Of a stretch of 31,805 nt of DNA, positions 17,133 through 21,422 are shown piece after piece. Made by a program: the position numbers and the translations under genes. Where the stretch lies: the IMG/VR virus record IMGVR_UViG_3300031951_000780, positions 1 through 31,805 of that record; one strand, written 5' to 3'. Each line of letters opens with the position of its first letter. Positions within the stretch are counted from its first letter, which is position 1. Under the pieces are notes generated by a model that saw only the letters and a program-made list of their open reading frames with translations, was not told where the DNA came from and did no database searches. This stretch comes from a virus.

Positions 17133-17744
17133 ATGAGAACTTATTGCGTTTTTTACCGCTCTTTTTATGAAGCTCTTTCTGAACTTCCCGAAAAGAACCA
17201 ACTCGAAATTTATCGAGCCATTTTTGAACTATCACTAAATGAAAATCGTATCGAATTAACAGGACTATCGAAAACTATCTTTACTCTTATCGAGCCTCAA
17301 GTATTAGCTAATTTACAGCGTTTTAAAAACGGAAGTAAACCAAAAGAGAAGCGAAACGGAAGCGAAACGGAAGCGAAAAAAAAGCAAAATAAAAGCGAAC
17401 CTGAAGCTAATAAGAATAAGAATAAGAATGAGAATAAGAAAGAAAATGAGAATAAGAAAAAGAATTTAGAACCGCCAACGATCGAAGAGGTTAAAACTTG
17501 GTTTATCGACCAAGGCTCAACAGCTGAGCAAGGGGCCAAGGCCTGGCAATACTATACCGACGGAAATTGGCACGACGCAAAAGGCCAACCCGTTAAAAAT
17601 TGGCGCCAGAAAATGAGGGGCGGGCGTTGGCTCGAGGTGAAAGCCGAGTCCCCCGTTTCCTCATACCCTCCGAAATACAAAAATCTTAATAACTTAAAAC
17701 CCGTAAACCTTAATGAACTTAACGACTTTTTTACCGCCGAATGA
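17133..17744 (+). CDS. Replication initiator / helicase-loader-like protein
   Basis: A 203-residue protein; ATG 17133 was chosen because FYRSFYEALSELPEKNQ then lies near the N-terminus, as in DUF6291-type phage replication proteins. Residues about 1-70 are the folded N-terminal domain, 72-112 a Lys/Asn/Glu-rich linker with DNA repeats, and 113-203 a C-terminal domain (PPTIEEVKTWFIDQG ... NWRQKMRGGRW) seen at the end of many phage initiators and helicase loaders. It overlaps dnaB by 32 bases. By analogy with lambda O it would bind the iterons at 17349-17414 and recruit DnaB. The replication role is well supported by context; origin binding is inferred. Confidence 0.7.
   Translation: MRTYCVFYRSFYEALSELPEKNQLEIYRAIFELSLNENRIELTGLSKTIFTLIEPQVLANLQRFKNGSKPKEKRNGSETEAKKKQNKSEPEANKNKNKNENKKENENKKKNLEPPTIEEVKTWFIDQGSTAEQGAKAWQYYTDGNWHDAKGQPVKNWRQKMRGGRWLEVKAESPVSSYPPKYKNLNNLKPVNLNELNDFFTAE
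17349..17414 (+). repeat. Six tandem 11-bp repeats (candidate origin iterons)
   Basis: Repeats begin at 17349, 17360, 17371, 17382, 17393 and 17404, exactly 11 bp apart. Each has AAGCnAA; the first two are identical (AAGCGAAACGG). Eleven is not a multiple of three, so the period is one of DNA, not of the protein, and keeps all sites on one helix face. A purine-rich AT tract follows immediately. This matches the plan of the lambda origin inside gene O. Confidence 0.7.
17415..17465 (+). repeat. AT-rich purine tract of GAATAA-like hexamers
   Basis: The + strand here is almost all A and G with occasional T, built from AATAAG/AATGAG units encoding Asn/Lys/Glu. Directly after the iterons it could be the site of strand opening. 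The six-base units do not shift the frame if their number changes. Confidence 0.6.
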
Positions 17745-19056
17745 TACAGACCTCGAAAGAATAGTACTAGGAGCCATTCTCCTCGATTTTAAGGCGTTTT
17801 CTCGGGTCGAAGGTATCCTAACCCCTAAAAAGTTTTTTGACCCCCGTAATGAGGCTCTAATGAATTCCATTATAAACCTCAAAAGTCAAAACCTGCCCGT
17901 CGATATTTTAACCGTTATCCAAGATTTACGCAAAAGAAAAGAATTAGAAGCCGCTGGCGGCCCAACTTATATAGCCGACTTAACCACCCGCGTTAGCTCA
18001 ACCGCCAATTTAGAAGCCTGGGCGCTGAGCTTAACCGAAATGTTTTTAAAACGCGAGTTAGCCAAAAGCGCCGCGCGGTTATCCGAGCTCGCTTTAATGC
18101 CTGAAAACGACCCATTCGACCTTTATAATTCCTTTAGTTCCGAATTAACCGACCTCATTCGTTCGAACTTAAAAGGCGAAACCGCCCACGTCTCGAATAT
18201 TACCCCCGAAACTTCGGCTAATATTGAAGCCAGAGAAAAAACGGGAATAAGCGGTATACCGACAGGAATTCGAGTAATTGATTCGGTTTTAGGAGGCCAC
18301 CAACCAAGCGACTTAATTTACGTGGCCGCTCGCCCAGGAATGGGAAAAACCGCCTACGCGCTGAGCGTTATTCTAAACATGGCACAAAGCGGAAAACCCG
18401 TCGGCTTTTTTTCCCTCGAAATGAGCCGAGTCCAAATCGTTTACAGGCTGGCGTCTATATTGAGCGGAGTTGGAGCCGAAGCGCTGGCGAAATACCGTTT
18501 AGATCGCGAAACAAAATTAAAATATTACCAAACCGTCGACAGGCTTAACGCCCTTCCGATTTATATCGACGATAACGCCTCACTTACTGTTAACGATATA
18601 AAAACCCGCGTCCGTACATTACGCGAAAAGTTCAAAATTCAGGCGGTTTTCGTGGATTACGTGCAATTAATCGCCGCGGCTAAATCTAAAACAGCGAATC
18701 GCGAACAAGAAGTAAGCGCGATAAGTCGAGGCCTAAAGTTAATCGCTAAGGAGAATGGTTTACCCGTTATCGCCCTGGCTCAACTTTCGCGATCGCTCGA
18801 GAACCGAAGCGATAAACGCCCTATGCTCTCGGATTTACGCGACTCAGGAAGCCTCGAGCAGGACGCCGACGTCGTGGCTTTTTTATACCGCGAGGATTAT
18901 TACGACAAAGGAACGGGAATTAACGGGGCTGAGTTCATAATCGCTAAACATAGGAACGGACGGACGGGTTACGTTCCTGTAAATTTCACCCCCGAAACGA
19001 TGCACTACACCGATATTCAAACCAAACCAATAAATAACGAATCATGGGAACTATGA
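17713..19056 (+). CDS. dnaB: Replicative DNA helicase, DnaB family
   Basis: A 447-residue replicative helicase. N-terminal DnaB domain (about 8-110, ERIVLGAILLD), linker, then RecA-like domain from about 178: Walker A ARPGMGKT (206-213), FSLEMS (233-238), Walker B AVFVDYVQLI with D315, LAQLSR (355-360), and a C-terminal EFIIAKHRNG (407-416) with the Arg of the arginine-finger region. Length is normal. It unwinds DNA at the fork as a hexamer; the overlapping upstream gene probably loads it. Its TGA overlaps the next ATG (ATGA). Confidence 0.95.
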   Translation: MNLTTFLPPNDTDLERIVLGAILLDFKAFSRVEGILTPKKFFDPRNEALMNSIINLKSQNLPVDILTVIQDLRKRKELEAAGGPTYIADLTTRVSSTANLEAWALSLTEMFLKRELAKSAARLSELALMPENDPFDLYNSFSSELTDLIRSNLKGETAHVSNITPETSANIEAREKTGISGIPTGIRVIDSVLGGHQPSDLIYVAARPGMGKTAYALSVILNMAQSGKPVGFFSLEMSRVQIVYRLASILSGVGAEALAKYRLDRETKLKYYQTVDRLNALPIYIDDNASLTVNDIKTRVRTLREKFKIQAVFVDYVQLIAAAKSKTANREQEVSAISRGLKLIAKENGLPVIALAQLSRSLENRSDKRPMLSDLRDSGSLEQDADVVAFLYREDYYDKGTGINGAEFIIAKHRNGRTGYVPVNFTPETMHYTDIQTKPINNESWEL

Positions 19057-19477: not shown

Positions 19478-19762
19478 ATGAATTTTATAATACAATATCG
19501 CCCCCCGTTTTTTTCAGGGTATGAGAACGAAACAAAGCGTTTCAATTCGCTTGAGGAATTGCTAAAAATTGAATGGATTCACTCTTGGAGTGAATATGAA
19601 GATTTTTACCGCTTTTCTATTTGCAAACATTCGCGAGAAAAACAACCGTTTACTCTTATGGTTGAATTGAATGAGGGCCGAAAATGGTTGGTAATTGGTT
19701 TTATTGATAATGATTTATACATTAATGAACTGCCTAAATGGATAAAAAATGAAAGTTTATAA
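19478..19762 (+). CDS. Small protein of unknown function
   Basis: A 94-residue protein rich in aromatic residues, with RFNSLEELLKIEWIHSW near the middle and strands at the C-terminus (KWLVIGFIDNDLYI). It overlaps the methyltransferase start by 14 bases. Not recognised; its base use also differs from the phage core. Confidence 0.52.
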   Translation: MNFIIQYRPPFFSGYENETKRFNSLEELLKIEWIHSWSEYEDFYRFSICKHSREKQPFTLMVELNEGRKWLVIGFIDNDLYINELPKWIKNESL

Positions 19763-20648
19763 GAATAAAACGGTAATTTTAAAGCACGGCTCTTTATTTT
19801 CAGGAATCGGAGGTTTCGACCTCGCGGCCGAGTGGATGGGTTGGGAAAATAAATTTCATTGTGAGTGGAATGAATTCGGCCAACGTGTTTTAAATTACTA
19901 TTGGCCCGAGGCCGAACTTTTTAAAGACATAACAAAAAGCGATTTTACTAAATATTATGGAACAATTGACGTTATTTCGGGAGGTTTTCCCTGTCAACCC
20001 TATTCAACCGCTGGAAAACGACTCGGAAAAGAGGATGAACGCCATTTATGGCCCGAAATGCTTAGAGCAATACGAGAGGTTTCCCCGCGTTACGTTGTGG
20101 GCGAAAACGTTCGCGGCCTTACTAATTGGAATGGAGGGTTGGTATTCGACGAAGTGTTTAATGACTTGGAAAATATTGGGTATTCGGTCGCGCCCTTTAT
20201 TATACCTGCGAGCGCGGTCAATGCACCGCACCAACGAGAGCGGGTTTGGTTTATTGCCTACGGTGACGGCGTTCGACTCAACAAGCGCAACGGCAAATAT
20301 GAAAAGCACACAAGTAAAAGAAGGATCGATGCACAGCATGACTTTAATGAGAATGTTAACCGAGGGCATGTTACCAACCCCAACGCTTCAGGATATGAAA
20401 AACAGCACTTTTCCGCCGAGTCAATTAAACAGAAACCACGTAGCGGGGTATTTAATGAGAGAGGGAATTTCGAGCGGTTCCCAACTCAACCCCCGATTTG
20501 TAGCGGAAATGATGGGTTTCCCGCCGAATTGGACGGAATTACCTTTTCAAAATGGCGAAACGAATCAATAAAGGCTTACGGTAACGCTGTCGTTCCTCAG
20601 GTTGTTTTTCAAATATTTAAAGCGATAGAAAAAAATGAGAGTTTATAA
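19749..20648 (+). CDS. DNA cytosine-5 methyltransferase
   Basis: A 299-residue enzyme: motif I SLFSGIGGFDLAAEW (15-29), motif IV GGFPCQPYS with catalytic C82, motif VI VGENVRGL (E119), motif VIII HQRERVWFIA (161-170), and motifs IX/X FPAELDG and KAYGNAVVPQVV (275-286). The target-recognition part between VIII and IX is short. It methylates cytosine at C5 and probably shields phage DNA from restriction. A second coding frame runs through bases 19957-20571 (residues about 70-274), including catalytic and target-recognition parts. Confidence 0.9.
   Translation: MKVYKNKTVILKHGSLFSGIGGFDLAAEWMGWENKFHCEWNEFGQRVLNYYWPEAELFKDITKSDFTKYYGTIDVISGGFPCQPYSTAGKRLGKEDERHLWPEMLRAIREVSPRYVVGENVRGLTNWNGGLVFDEVFNDLENIGYSVAPFIIPASAVNAPHQRERVWFIAYGDGVRLNKRNGKYEKHTSKRRIDAQHDFNENVNRGHVTNPNASGYEKQHFSAESIKQKPRSGVFNERGNFERFPTQPPICSGNDGFPAELDGITFSKWRNESIKAYGNAVVPQVVFQIFKAIEKNESL
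19957..20571 (+). CDS. Second gene in the +1 frame inside the methyltransferase gene
   Basis: A 204-residue frame fully inside the methyltransferase gene. It is not random: FPVNPIQP near the start, LWAKTFAALLIGMEGWYSTKC (split near residue 50), SGFGLLPTVTAFD, LPTPTLQDMKNSTFPPSQ, and LNPRFVAEMMGFPPNWTELPF near the end match a family I know from phage methyltransferase loci, where LPTPT and LNPxFVxEMMGFPxxW are hallmarks. Function is unknown; guesses include a partner of the methyltransferase or a modification-related DNA-binding protein. Both frames look conserved, which favours true dual coding. I see no strong ribosome site, so expression level is uncertain. Confidence 0.7.
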   Translation: MEQLTLFREVFPVNPIQPLENDSEKRMNAIYGPKCLEQYERFPRVTLWAKTFAALLIGMEGWYSTKCLMTWKILGIRSRPLLYLRARSMHRTNESGFGLLPTVTAFDSTSATANMKSTQVKEGSMHSMTLMRMLTEGMLPTPTLQDMKNSTFPPSQLNRNHVAGYLMREGISSGSQLNPRFVAEMMGFPPNWTELPFQNGETNQ

Positions 20649-20883
20649 GAATCCAAAAGCGGGGAGCTACGATGTATTAACCGAGAAAAATTTACTTTTT
20701 CACGTGGAAAAGTGGGGGACTCGATTTATAGGCGTCGTAAATAGCAGTTGGCAGGCGAACGGTAAATTATTAAAAAAAATACCGACCAACGTTTCAACCA
20801 GCGTCGTTAACGAAATGGCGAAAAATGGGCGTAAATATGAATTTCTTTTAAAGTATTACGAAAATCTCAATAAAAGAAACTGA
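20635..20883 (+). CDS. Small protein of unknown function
   Basis: An 82-residue basic protein beginning MRVYKNPKAGSY. Its start overlaps the methyltransferase end by 14 bases and repeats the beginning of the methyltransferase (MKVYKNK), as if the junction had been copied. A strand-rich first half (FHVEKWGTRFIGVV) precedes a helix. Not recognised. Confidence 0.55.
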   Translation: MRVYKNPKAGSYDVLTEKNLLFHVEKWGTRFIGVVNSSWQANGKLLKKIPTNVSTSVVNEMAKNGRKYEFLLKYYENLNKRN

Positions 20884-20885
20884 GG

Positions 20886-21422
20886 ATGAAACGTTGTAAA
20901 ATTTGCAAAGCGCCCTTTACGCCAACTTATTCGAGCTTGCAAGCAACTTGCACGAAACCCCAATGTTTAATTGAATGGGGCCGAATGGCTGAGCGGAAAA
21001 AAGCGAAACGCGAAATTCGGCAAATGCGAGAGAACATTAAAAGCGTCAGCCAATACCGCCGCGAGCTTCAAAAAGTGTTTAACGAATTTATAAGGCTCAG
21101 GGACTCAAAACAACCCTGTATAAGTTGCGGCCGACCTTTGCCCGCGAAATATGACGCGGGGCATTTTTACAGCGTGGGCAATTACCCGAACCTGAGGTTT
21201 AACGAGGATAACGTCCACGGCCAATGCGTCGAGTGTAACCAGCATAAGCACGGGAATTTGTTAGAATACGCGCCCAGGTTAACCGACCGAATTGGATTCG
21301 AACGGGCTTCGAAATTAATGCTACTCAGAAACGAGCCGTTAAGGCTCAGCCTCGACGAAATAAAGGAACTAATAACCCACTACAAAAAACGCGTTAACGA
21401 ATGGAAAACGAGGAGCGAATAA
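20886..21422 (+). CDS. NinG/Rap-like recombination nuclease
   Basis: A 178-residue protein of the NinG/Rap family, which in lambda cuts branched recombination intermediates. Zinc-type cysteines C4, C7, C22 and C27; then a helical arm (about 35-70); then CISCGRPL with C78 and C81, the AGHFY motif with H93, and HGQCVECNQHKHGN with C114, C117 and H120. Together these form an HNH-like core. It fits with the recombination pair upstream and would resolve replication or recombination branches before packaging. Confidence 0.83.
   Translation: MKRCKICKAPFTPTYSSLQATCTKPQCLIEWGRMAERKKAKREIRQMRENIKSVSQYRRELQKVFNEFIRLRDSKQPCISCGRPLPAKYDAGHFYSVGNYPNLRFNEDNVHGQCVECNQHKHGNLLEYAPRLTDRIGFERASKLMLLRNEPLRLSLDEIKELITHYKKRVNEWKTRSE

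Follow-up and report, generated by a model that had tools for sequence, protein, structure and literature searches.

The 31,805-nucleotide window (the whole stretch of DNA analysed, a 31.8-kb virus record) raises the question of why one strand should encode two proteins in the same 615 bases, the longer being a C5-cytosine methyltransferase. A sequence-only reading had placed a second ORF, here called beta, inside the methyltransferase ORF, here called alpha, on the same strand and in the +1 frame; the nesting and its coordinates are correct, and the +1 frame holds LPTPT, PPSQ and LNPRFVAEMMGFPPNW, as had been said (Table 1). The explanation favoured here, with a probability of about 0.86, is that of a two-subunit C5-cytosine DNA methyltransferase, made up of a catalytic alpha and a beta with recognition modules and motif IX, and probably serving multi-target anti-restriction. 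Alpha is located in the early replication region, between two ORFs that we take, from reading the sequence by eye, to encode a DnaB-like helicase (17713-19056) and a NinG-like protein (20886-21422). A 23-nt direct repeat (22/23 identical), at 19744-19766 and 20630-20652, spans the start codons of alpha and of the next ORF and so brackets the methyltransferase gene; it is perhaps a trace of cassette gain.

Table 1. Features of the overlapping gene pair, in window positions.
Feature	Positions	Strand	Content	Basis
Alpha, C5-cytosine methyltransferase catalytic subunit	19749-20648	+	motifs I-VIII and X, without motif IX; 299 codons	
Beta, +1-frame ORF	19957-20571	+	probable recognition modules and motif IX; 204 codons; putative start codon	phrog_1008 E=2.3e-17; stop avoidance; substitution phases
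Alpha motif I	19785-19820	+	HGSLFSGIGGFD; outside the overlap	sequence; alignment to M.HhaI
Alpha motif IV	19980-20000	+	GGFPCQP, catalytic Cys	sequence; invariant columns in alignment A2
Alpha motif VI	20103-20111	+	ENV	sequence; invariant in alignment A2
Alpha motif VIII	20232-20243	+	QRER	sequence; aligns with canonical motif VIII
Beta putative recognition module 1	20254-20370	+	LPTVTAFDSTSATANMKSTQVKEGSMHSMTLMRMLTEGM; recognition role inferred	module clustering; commonest type, 44 copies
Beta putative recognition module 2	20371-20481	+	LPTPTLQDMKNSTFPPSQLNRNHVAGYLMREGISSGS	module clustering; 3 copies, positions 2/2 and 3/3
Beta predicted motif IX	20482-20535	+	QLNPRFVAEMMGFPPNWT	canonical HMM alignment; hhalign P=0.0036; bridging homologues
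Alpha motif X	20571-20618	+	KAYGNAVVPQVVFQIF; begins at beta's end	sequence; canonical HMM alignment

Alpha matches PF00145 (E=3.4e-46), aligned from motif I to just beyond motif VIII, as well as phrog_363 (E=3.3e-70) and, by profile, M.HhaI (E=1.4e-27). The C5-cytosine methyltransferase motifs I, IV, VI and VIII are all in alpha, and motif X is represented by GNAVVPQ, aligned to the canonical HMM. In the predicted model of alpha the catalytic domain is ordered, residues 175-237, where a recognition domain would be expected, are disordered, and motif X forms a helix; M.HhaI structures give the best fold matches, over ~165 columns of the catalytic domain. Alpha had been credited with all core C5 motifs from its sequence and PCQ, ENV, QRER and GNAVVPQ are indeed present, but motif IX is absent.

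The +1 frame of alpha is open for 212 codons, against a mean of 78 codons and a maximum of 191 for the longest run in 5000 synonymous shuffles, and the longest +1 runs in a comparison set of 11 single-chain C5 methyltransferase genes are 32-96 codons; the +2 frame is as synonymous shuffles predict. Across 77 loci there are no beta-frame stops in the 5' half of the overlap (~217 expected) and no alpha-frame stops in the 3' half (~304 expected), totals that are not independent counts because the loci are kin; a non-overlap control region has 265 stops against 255 expected. The beta ORF is conserved and not a product of chance.

Substitution phases indicate which frame is constrained where. In pairs that are 75-85% identical, alpha codon positions 1/2/3 differ in 7/4/32% of cases upstream of the overlap, 10/5/17% across motifs IV-VIII, 34/17/15% in the module region, 18/3/9% in motif IX and 13/8/30% in motif X. 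As alpha's first position is beta's third, alpha is dominant outside the overlap, both frames are constrained over motifs IV-VIII, and beta is the constrained frame over the modules and motif IX. The C72C1 clade has the same alternation of phases. Over 20037-20216 the proportion of alpha third positions that differ drops from ~34-52% to 17-23%, and in another clade from 48-54% to 15-18%. In the module region, beta-synonymous positions are as free to vary (33.8%) as the synonymous positions of non-overlapping alpha (32.0%).

The mutual constraint proposed from the sequence is thus present over motifs IV-VIII but uneven elsewhere: apart from stop avoidance, no amino-acid constraint on alpha is detectable over the recognition modules, and a 12-codon map places only weak constraint on the first ~27 codons of beta. 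That weakly constrained start is what would be expected if the +1 ORF were an untranslated by-product of codon usage and of the conservation of alpha, a view to which we give almost no credence, as the observed run is reached in 0 of 5000 shuffles and the substitution phases contradict it, the conserved frame over the modules and motif IX being that of beta and not of alpha. The proposal that both frames encode conserved proteins stands, on the evidence of stop avoidance, substitution phases and the homologues of beta.

Homologues of the +1 protein are found beyond this locus, in phrog_1008 (E=2.3e-17), 68 phage records and 597 viral stretches. In the best 80 of the 597 viral loci, alpha is always present and open, with beta always in the same +1 register. 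The sequence-only reading regarded a beta stop beside an intact alpha as evidence against dual coding, and such a case was found once among these relatives: L046 and L048, which come from two metagenomes and whose match coordinates, counted from the gene, are identical, share a single in-frame TAA near beta codon 95, with alpha open. Genome contigs provide 80 further loci, mostly from Bacteroidota and again with beta at +1, with broken frames in several copies (e.g. L124, L127, L154, L155, L161 and L167). Among sampled genomes, phrog_1008 is present in 3/396, 28/399 and 4/399 from the phyla of the Chitinophaga (L103), Burkholderiaceae (L122) and Bacillota (L095) genomes, respectively. The pair can also be seen in named phages, namely gp49 with gp50 in Paenibacillus phage Diva, annotated 'g49 internal gene', KE1_032/KE1_033 in Escherichia phage fKuEco01, and Vibrio phage 1.291.O, in which beta is annotated and alpha is unannotated. 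In the latter (L177:1189-1193) and in a Leptospira plasmid (L085:1305-1309) the ORF starts are ~4 bases apart, so that beta overlaps nearly the whole of alpha.

A scan independent of beta used N-terminal pieces of alpha from three clades, two of which extend into the overlap while staying in the frame of alpha. Of 223 complete loci, 194 satisfied a strict pattern for motif IX in +1, and a looser +1 motif IX was present in all 23 that were inspected among the remaining 29; related alphas, found without beta, nearly all carry beta in the +1 frame. The arrangement is widespread and little described, as had been supposed, and its range extends from Bacteroidota phages, to which it had been assigned, to Bacillota and Pseudomonadota phages and prophages. 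In E. coli A16 (L485:1411-2439) RefSeq has only alpha, and an unannotated 311-codon +1 ORF inside it holds several modules and motif IX; the family is matched at the DNA level in 68/5,426 E. coli genomes. Separately, Streptococcus phage IPP53 (L176:1295-1774) and L178:1277-1765 have single-chain C5 methyltransferases with their own motif IX plus a +1 ORF of 160-163 codons, a length reached in 0/1000 shuffles. This ORF belongs to phrog_16143, has relatives in 223 phage records and holds LSDILEEEVDERYFLS, resembling a segment that is in frame in other C5 methyltransferases; it is possibly a second overlapping family.

The identity of beta was approached through the motif missing from alpha. In alignments to the canonical HMM, built from single-chain methyltransferases, LNPRFVAEMMGFPPNW of beta falls on motif IX (RKLTPREAARLQTFPDDY) just before alpha's GNAV; likewise SQLNPRFVAEMMGFPPNW aligns as motif IX and is followed by alpha's GNAV, and the end of LNPRFVAEMMGFPPNWT, also a match to canonical motif IX, meets the start of alpha's motif X. 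Stitching alpha, beta and alpha segments in gene order lifts the C-terminal domain score from ~1 bit to 9-13 bits for most members of the window clade. Taken singly, betas have weak direct motif IX scores (0-2 bits). When 170 beta C-termini are compared with canonical methyltransferases by hhalign, motif IX is the only part chosen (P=0.0036). The more distant Paenibacillus, C72C1 and Kagunavirus members gain nothing from stitching, and for this reason the case for motif IX rests also on mycobacteriophages.

In Mycobacterium phage BellusTerra, gp80 has motifs I-VIII and then ends, and gp79, in the +1 frame with a 23-nt overlap, has three LPTP modules, RLNAAFSEWMMGW and motif X. Gp79 belongs to phrog_1008 (1.7e-79) and matches the C5 methyltransferase family phrog_116 (6.2e-9) collinearly, downstream of the match of gp80. 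Ryadel gp8/gp7 are similar, with an overlap of 209 nt. This link to motif IX appears stronger than the direct HMM and hhalign scores, which are themselves modest. Gordonia phage Trax is an intermediate: it has a module in the +1 frame, and motifs IX and X are read in frame with alpha. Its +1 run does not by itself reach significance (145/1000 shuffles equal it). In Mycobacterium phage AlpineSix (L171:1352-1945) a single annotated ORF has a beta-like N-terminus in frame with motifs VIII and X of alpha, as would result from a deletion joining the two frames.

The motif IX alignments and the split mycobacteriophage genes together suggest that beta is best read as the recognition-plus-motif-IX part, so that the +1 protein, previously thought to represent a separate phage family, most likely belongs to the same C5 methyltransferase, carrying its target-recognition region and motif IX. 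We assign recognition to beta because beta's is the constrained frame between motifs VIII and IX. It could be argued instead that beta is a separate accessory protein, e.g. a regulator, which merely overlaps the methyltransferase, since no Pfam model scores above cut-off for beta, no NCBIfam model names it, and its N-terminal half resembles no protein of known function. We consider this improbable: alphas without motif IX are almost always paired with a beta bearing motif IX, mycobacteriophages have the modules and motifs IX and X on a single chain, and gp79 is linked to phrog_116. A search of the beta profile against PDB sequences gave no methyltransferase match, and a structure prediction for beta from 59 sequences reached a pLDDT of 46, too low for a fold search. 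A match of beta to PF13379 (E=0.0055, under the cut-off) was judged to be chance.

The collinearity of motifs I-VIII, modules, IX and X across the frames would also fit a single chain made by programmed frameshifting, from I-VIII in alpha, by a +1 shift, into the modules and motif IX and maybe back to X. This is unlikely too, if a little less so than an accessory protein, because the part of beta that precedes the shift point (~20037-20250) is also an open and constrained frame, which a shift after motif VIII would not select; moreover, X could be reached only by shifting twice, and in BellusTerra alpha ends after VIII, with gp79 annotated as an ORF of its own.

The modules are consistent with two subunits. 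In 58 distinct betas there are 141 LPTPT-type modules in 46 clusters, with 1-4 modules of ~27-50 aa per protein, between motifs VIII and IX, where target-recognition domains belong. The commonest type (44 copies) occurs at positions 1, 2 and 3, and other types combine in many ways, with variable number and order; several exchangeable modules between VIII and IX, a trait of C5 methyltransferases with multiple recognition domains, are thus present. From their position, size and shuffling we infer that the modules recognise DNA targets, by analogy perhaps one target each, and beta is probably multispecific.

In the proposed two-subunit enzyme, alpha would provide motif X together with the domain for SAM binding and catalysis (I-VIII). 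Beta would be translated from an internal +1-frame start on alpha's message (a Shine-Dalgarno-like GGGAGG upstream of its ATG occurs only in Paenibacillus phages among the phages looked at) and would provide the small domain, with tandem exchangeable recognition modules, two in the window, and motif IX. The N-terminal half of beta, overprinted on alpha IV-VIII, probably docks onto alpha, and the two chains would assemble into a complete C5 methyltransferase. The complex probably methylates several short targets in the phage DNA, one per module, and the phage would therefore be shielded from host restriction.

The locus likely represents a large, mostly unannotated class of phage methyltransferases whose modules lie in +1 relative to the catalytic gene, an arrangement in which every module exchange must preserve two reading frames. 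Such a class may have originated when the frame was split after motif VIII, with a later reciprocal overprinting in which beta grew back over IV-VIII and alpha grew forward through the modules to X; the gene pair lets overprinting be traced in both directions, with the barely overlapping mycobacteriophage split relatives for comparison. Reading the pair as two subunits makes a puzzling overlap a testable enzyme and would explain alphas that are annotated as complete yet lack motif IX and a recognition domain. Standard annotation can miss the subunit that probably sets specificity, as in the RefSeq entry for E. coli A16, and alpha expressed alone would, if the reading is true, give misleading negatives.

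In M.EcoHK31I, the small-subunit ORF is nested in another frame of the large-subunit gene, which is true also of the window pair. This YGGCCR enzyme (Lee 1995) is described in PMC3404938 as a two-polypeptide C5 methyltransferase with motifs I-VIII and X in the large chain and IX in the small, a partition that, compared by description, is that of the window pair; its predicted TRD is placed there in the large subunit, whereas the window family has its probable recognition modules in beta, in 1-4 exchangeable copies, and on phages. C5 methyltransferase fragments can assemble into a complete enzyme (PMC3404938). M.AquI (CYCGRG) is likewise a two-subunit C5 enzyme with a natural split between VIII and IX, but its small subunit comprises part of the variable region, IX and X (PMC3404938), which brings it nearer to BellusTerra gp80/gp79 than to the window pair, in which X stays in alpha. 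The multispecific C5 methyltransferases of phages SPR, SPbeta and phi3T (Wilke 1988 and Trautner 1996, as cited in PMC8936443 and PMC12707154) are, in those accounts, orphan phage enzymes with several tandem recognition domains, but in a single chain and one frame, whereas the window modules are in a second, overlapping gene. The annotation of phrog_1008 ('DNA methyltransferase'), which includes betas and BellusTerra gp79, is silent on a partner-subunit role and on the overlap with alpha, and no published description of the overlap in phages was found in literature lacking most subscription journals. Two-subunit C5 methyltransferases and the M.EcoHK31I motif partition were known already; what appears to be new is how widely the arrangement occurs, among phages and prophages of Bacteroidota, Bacillota and Pseudomonadota, together with the modular nature of beta and the overprinting in both directions.
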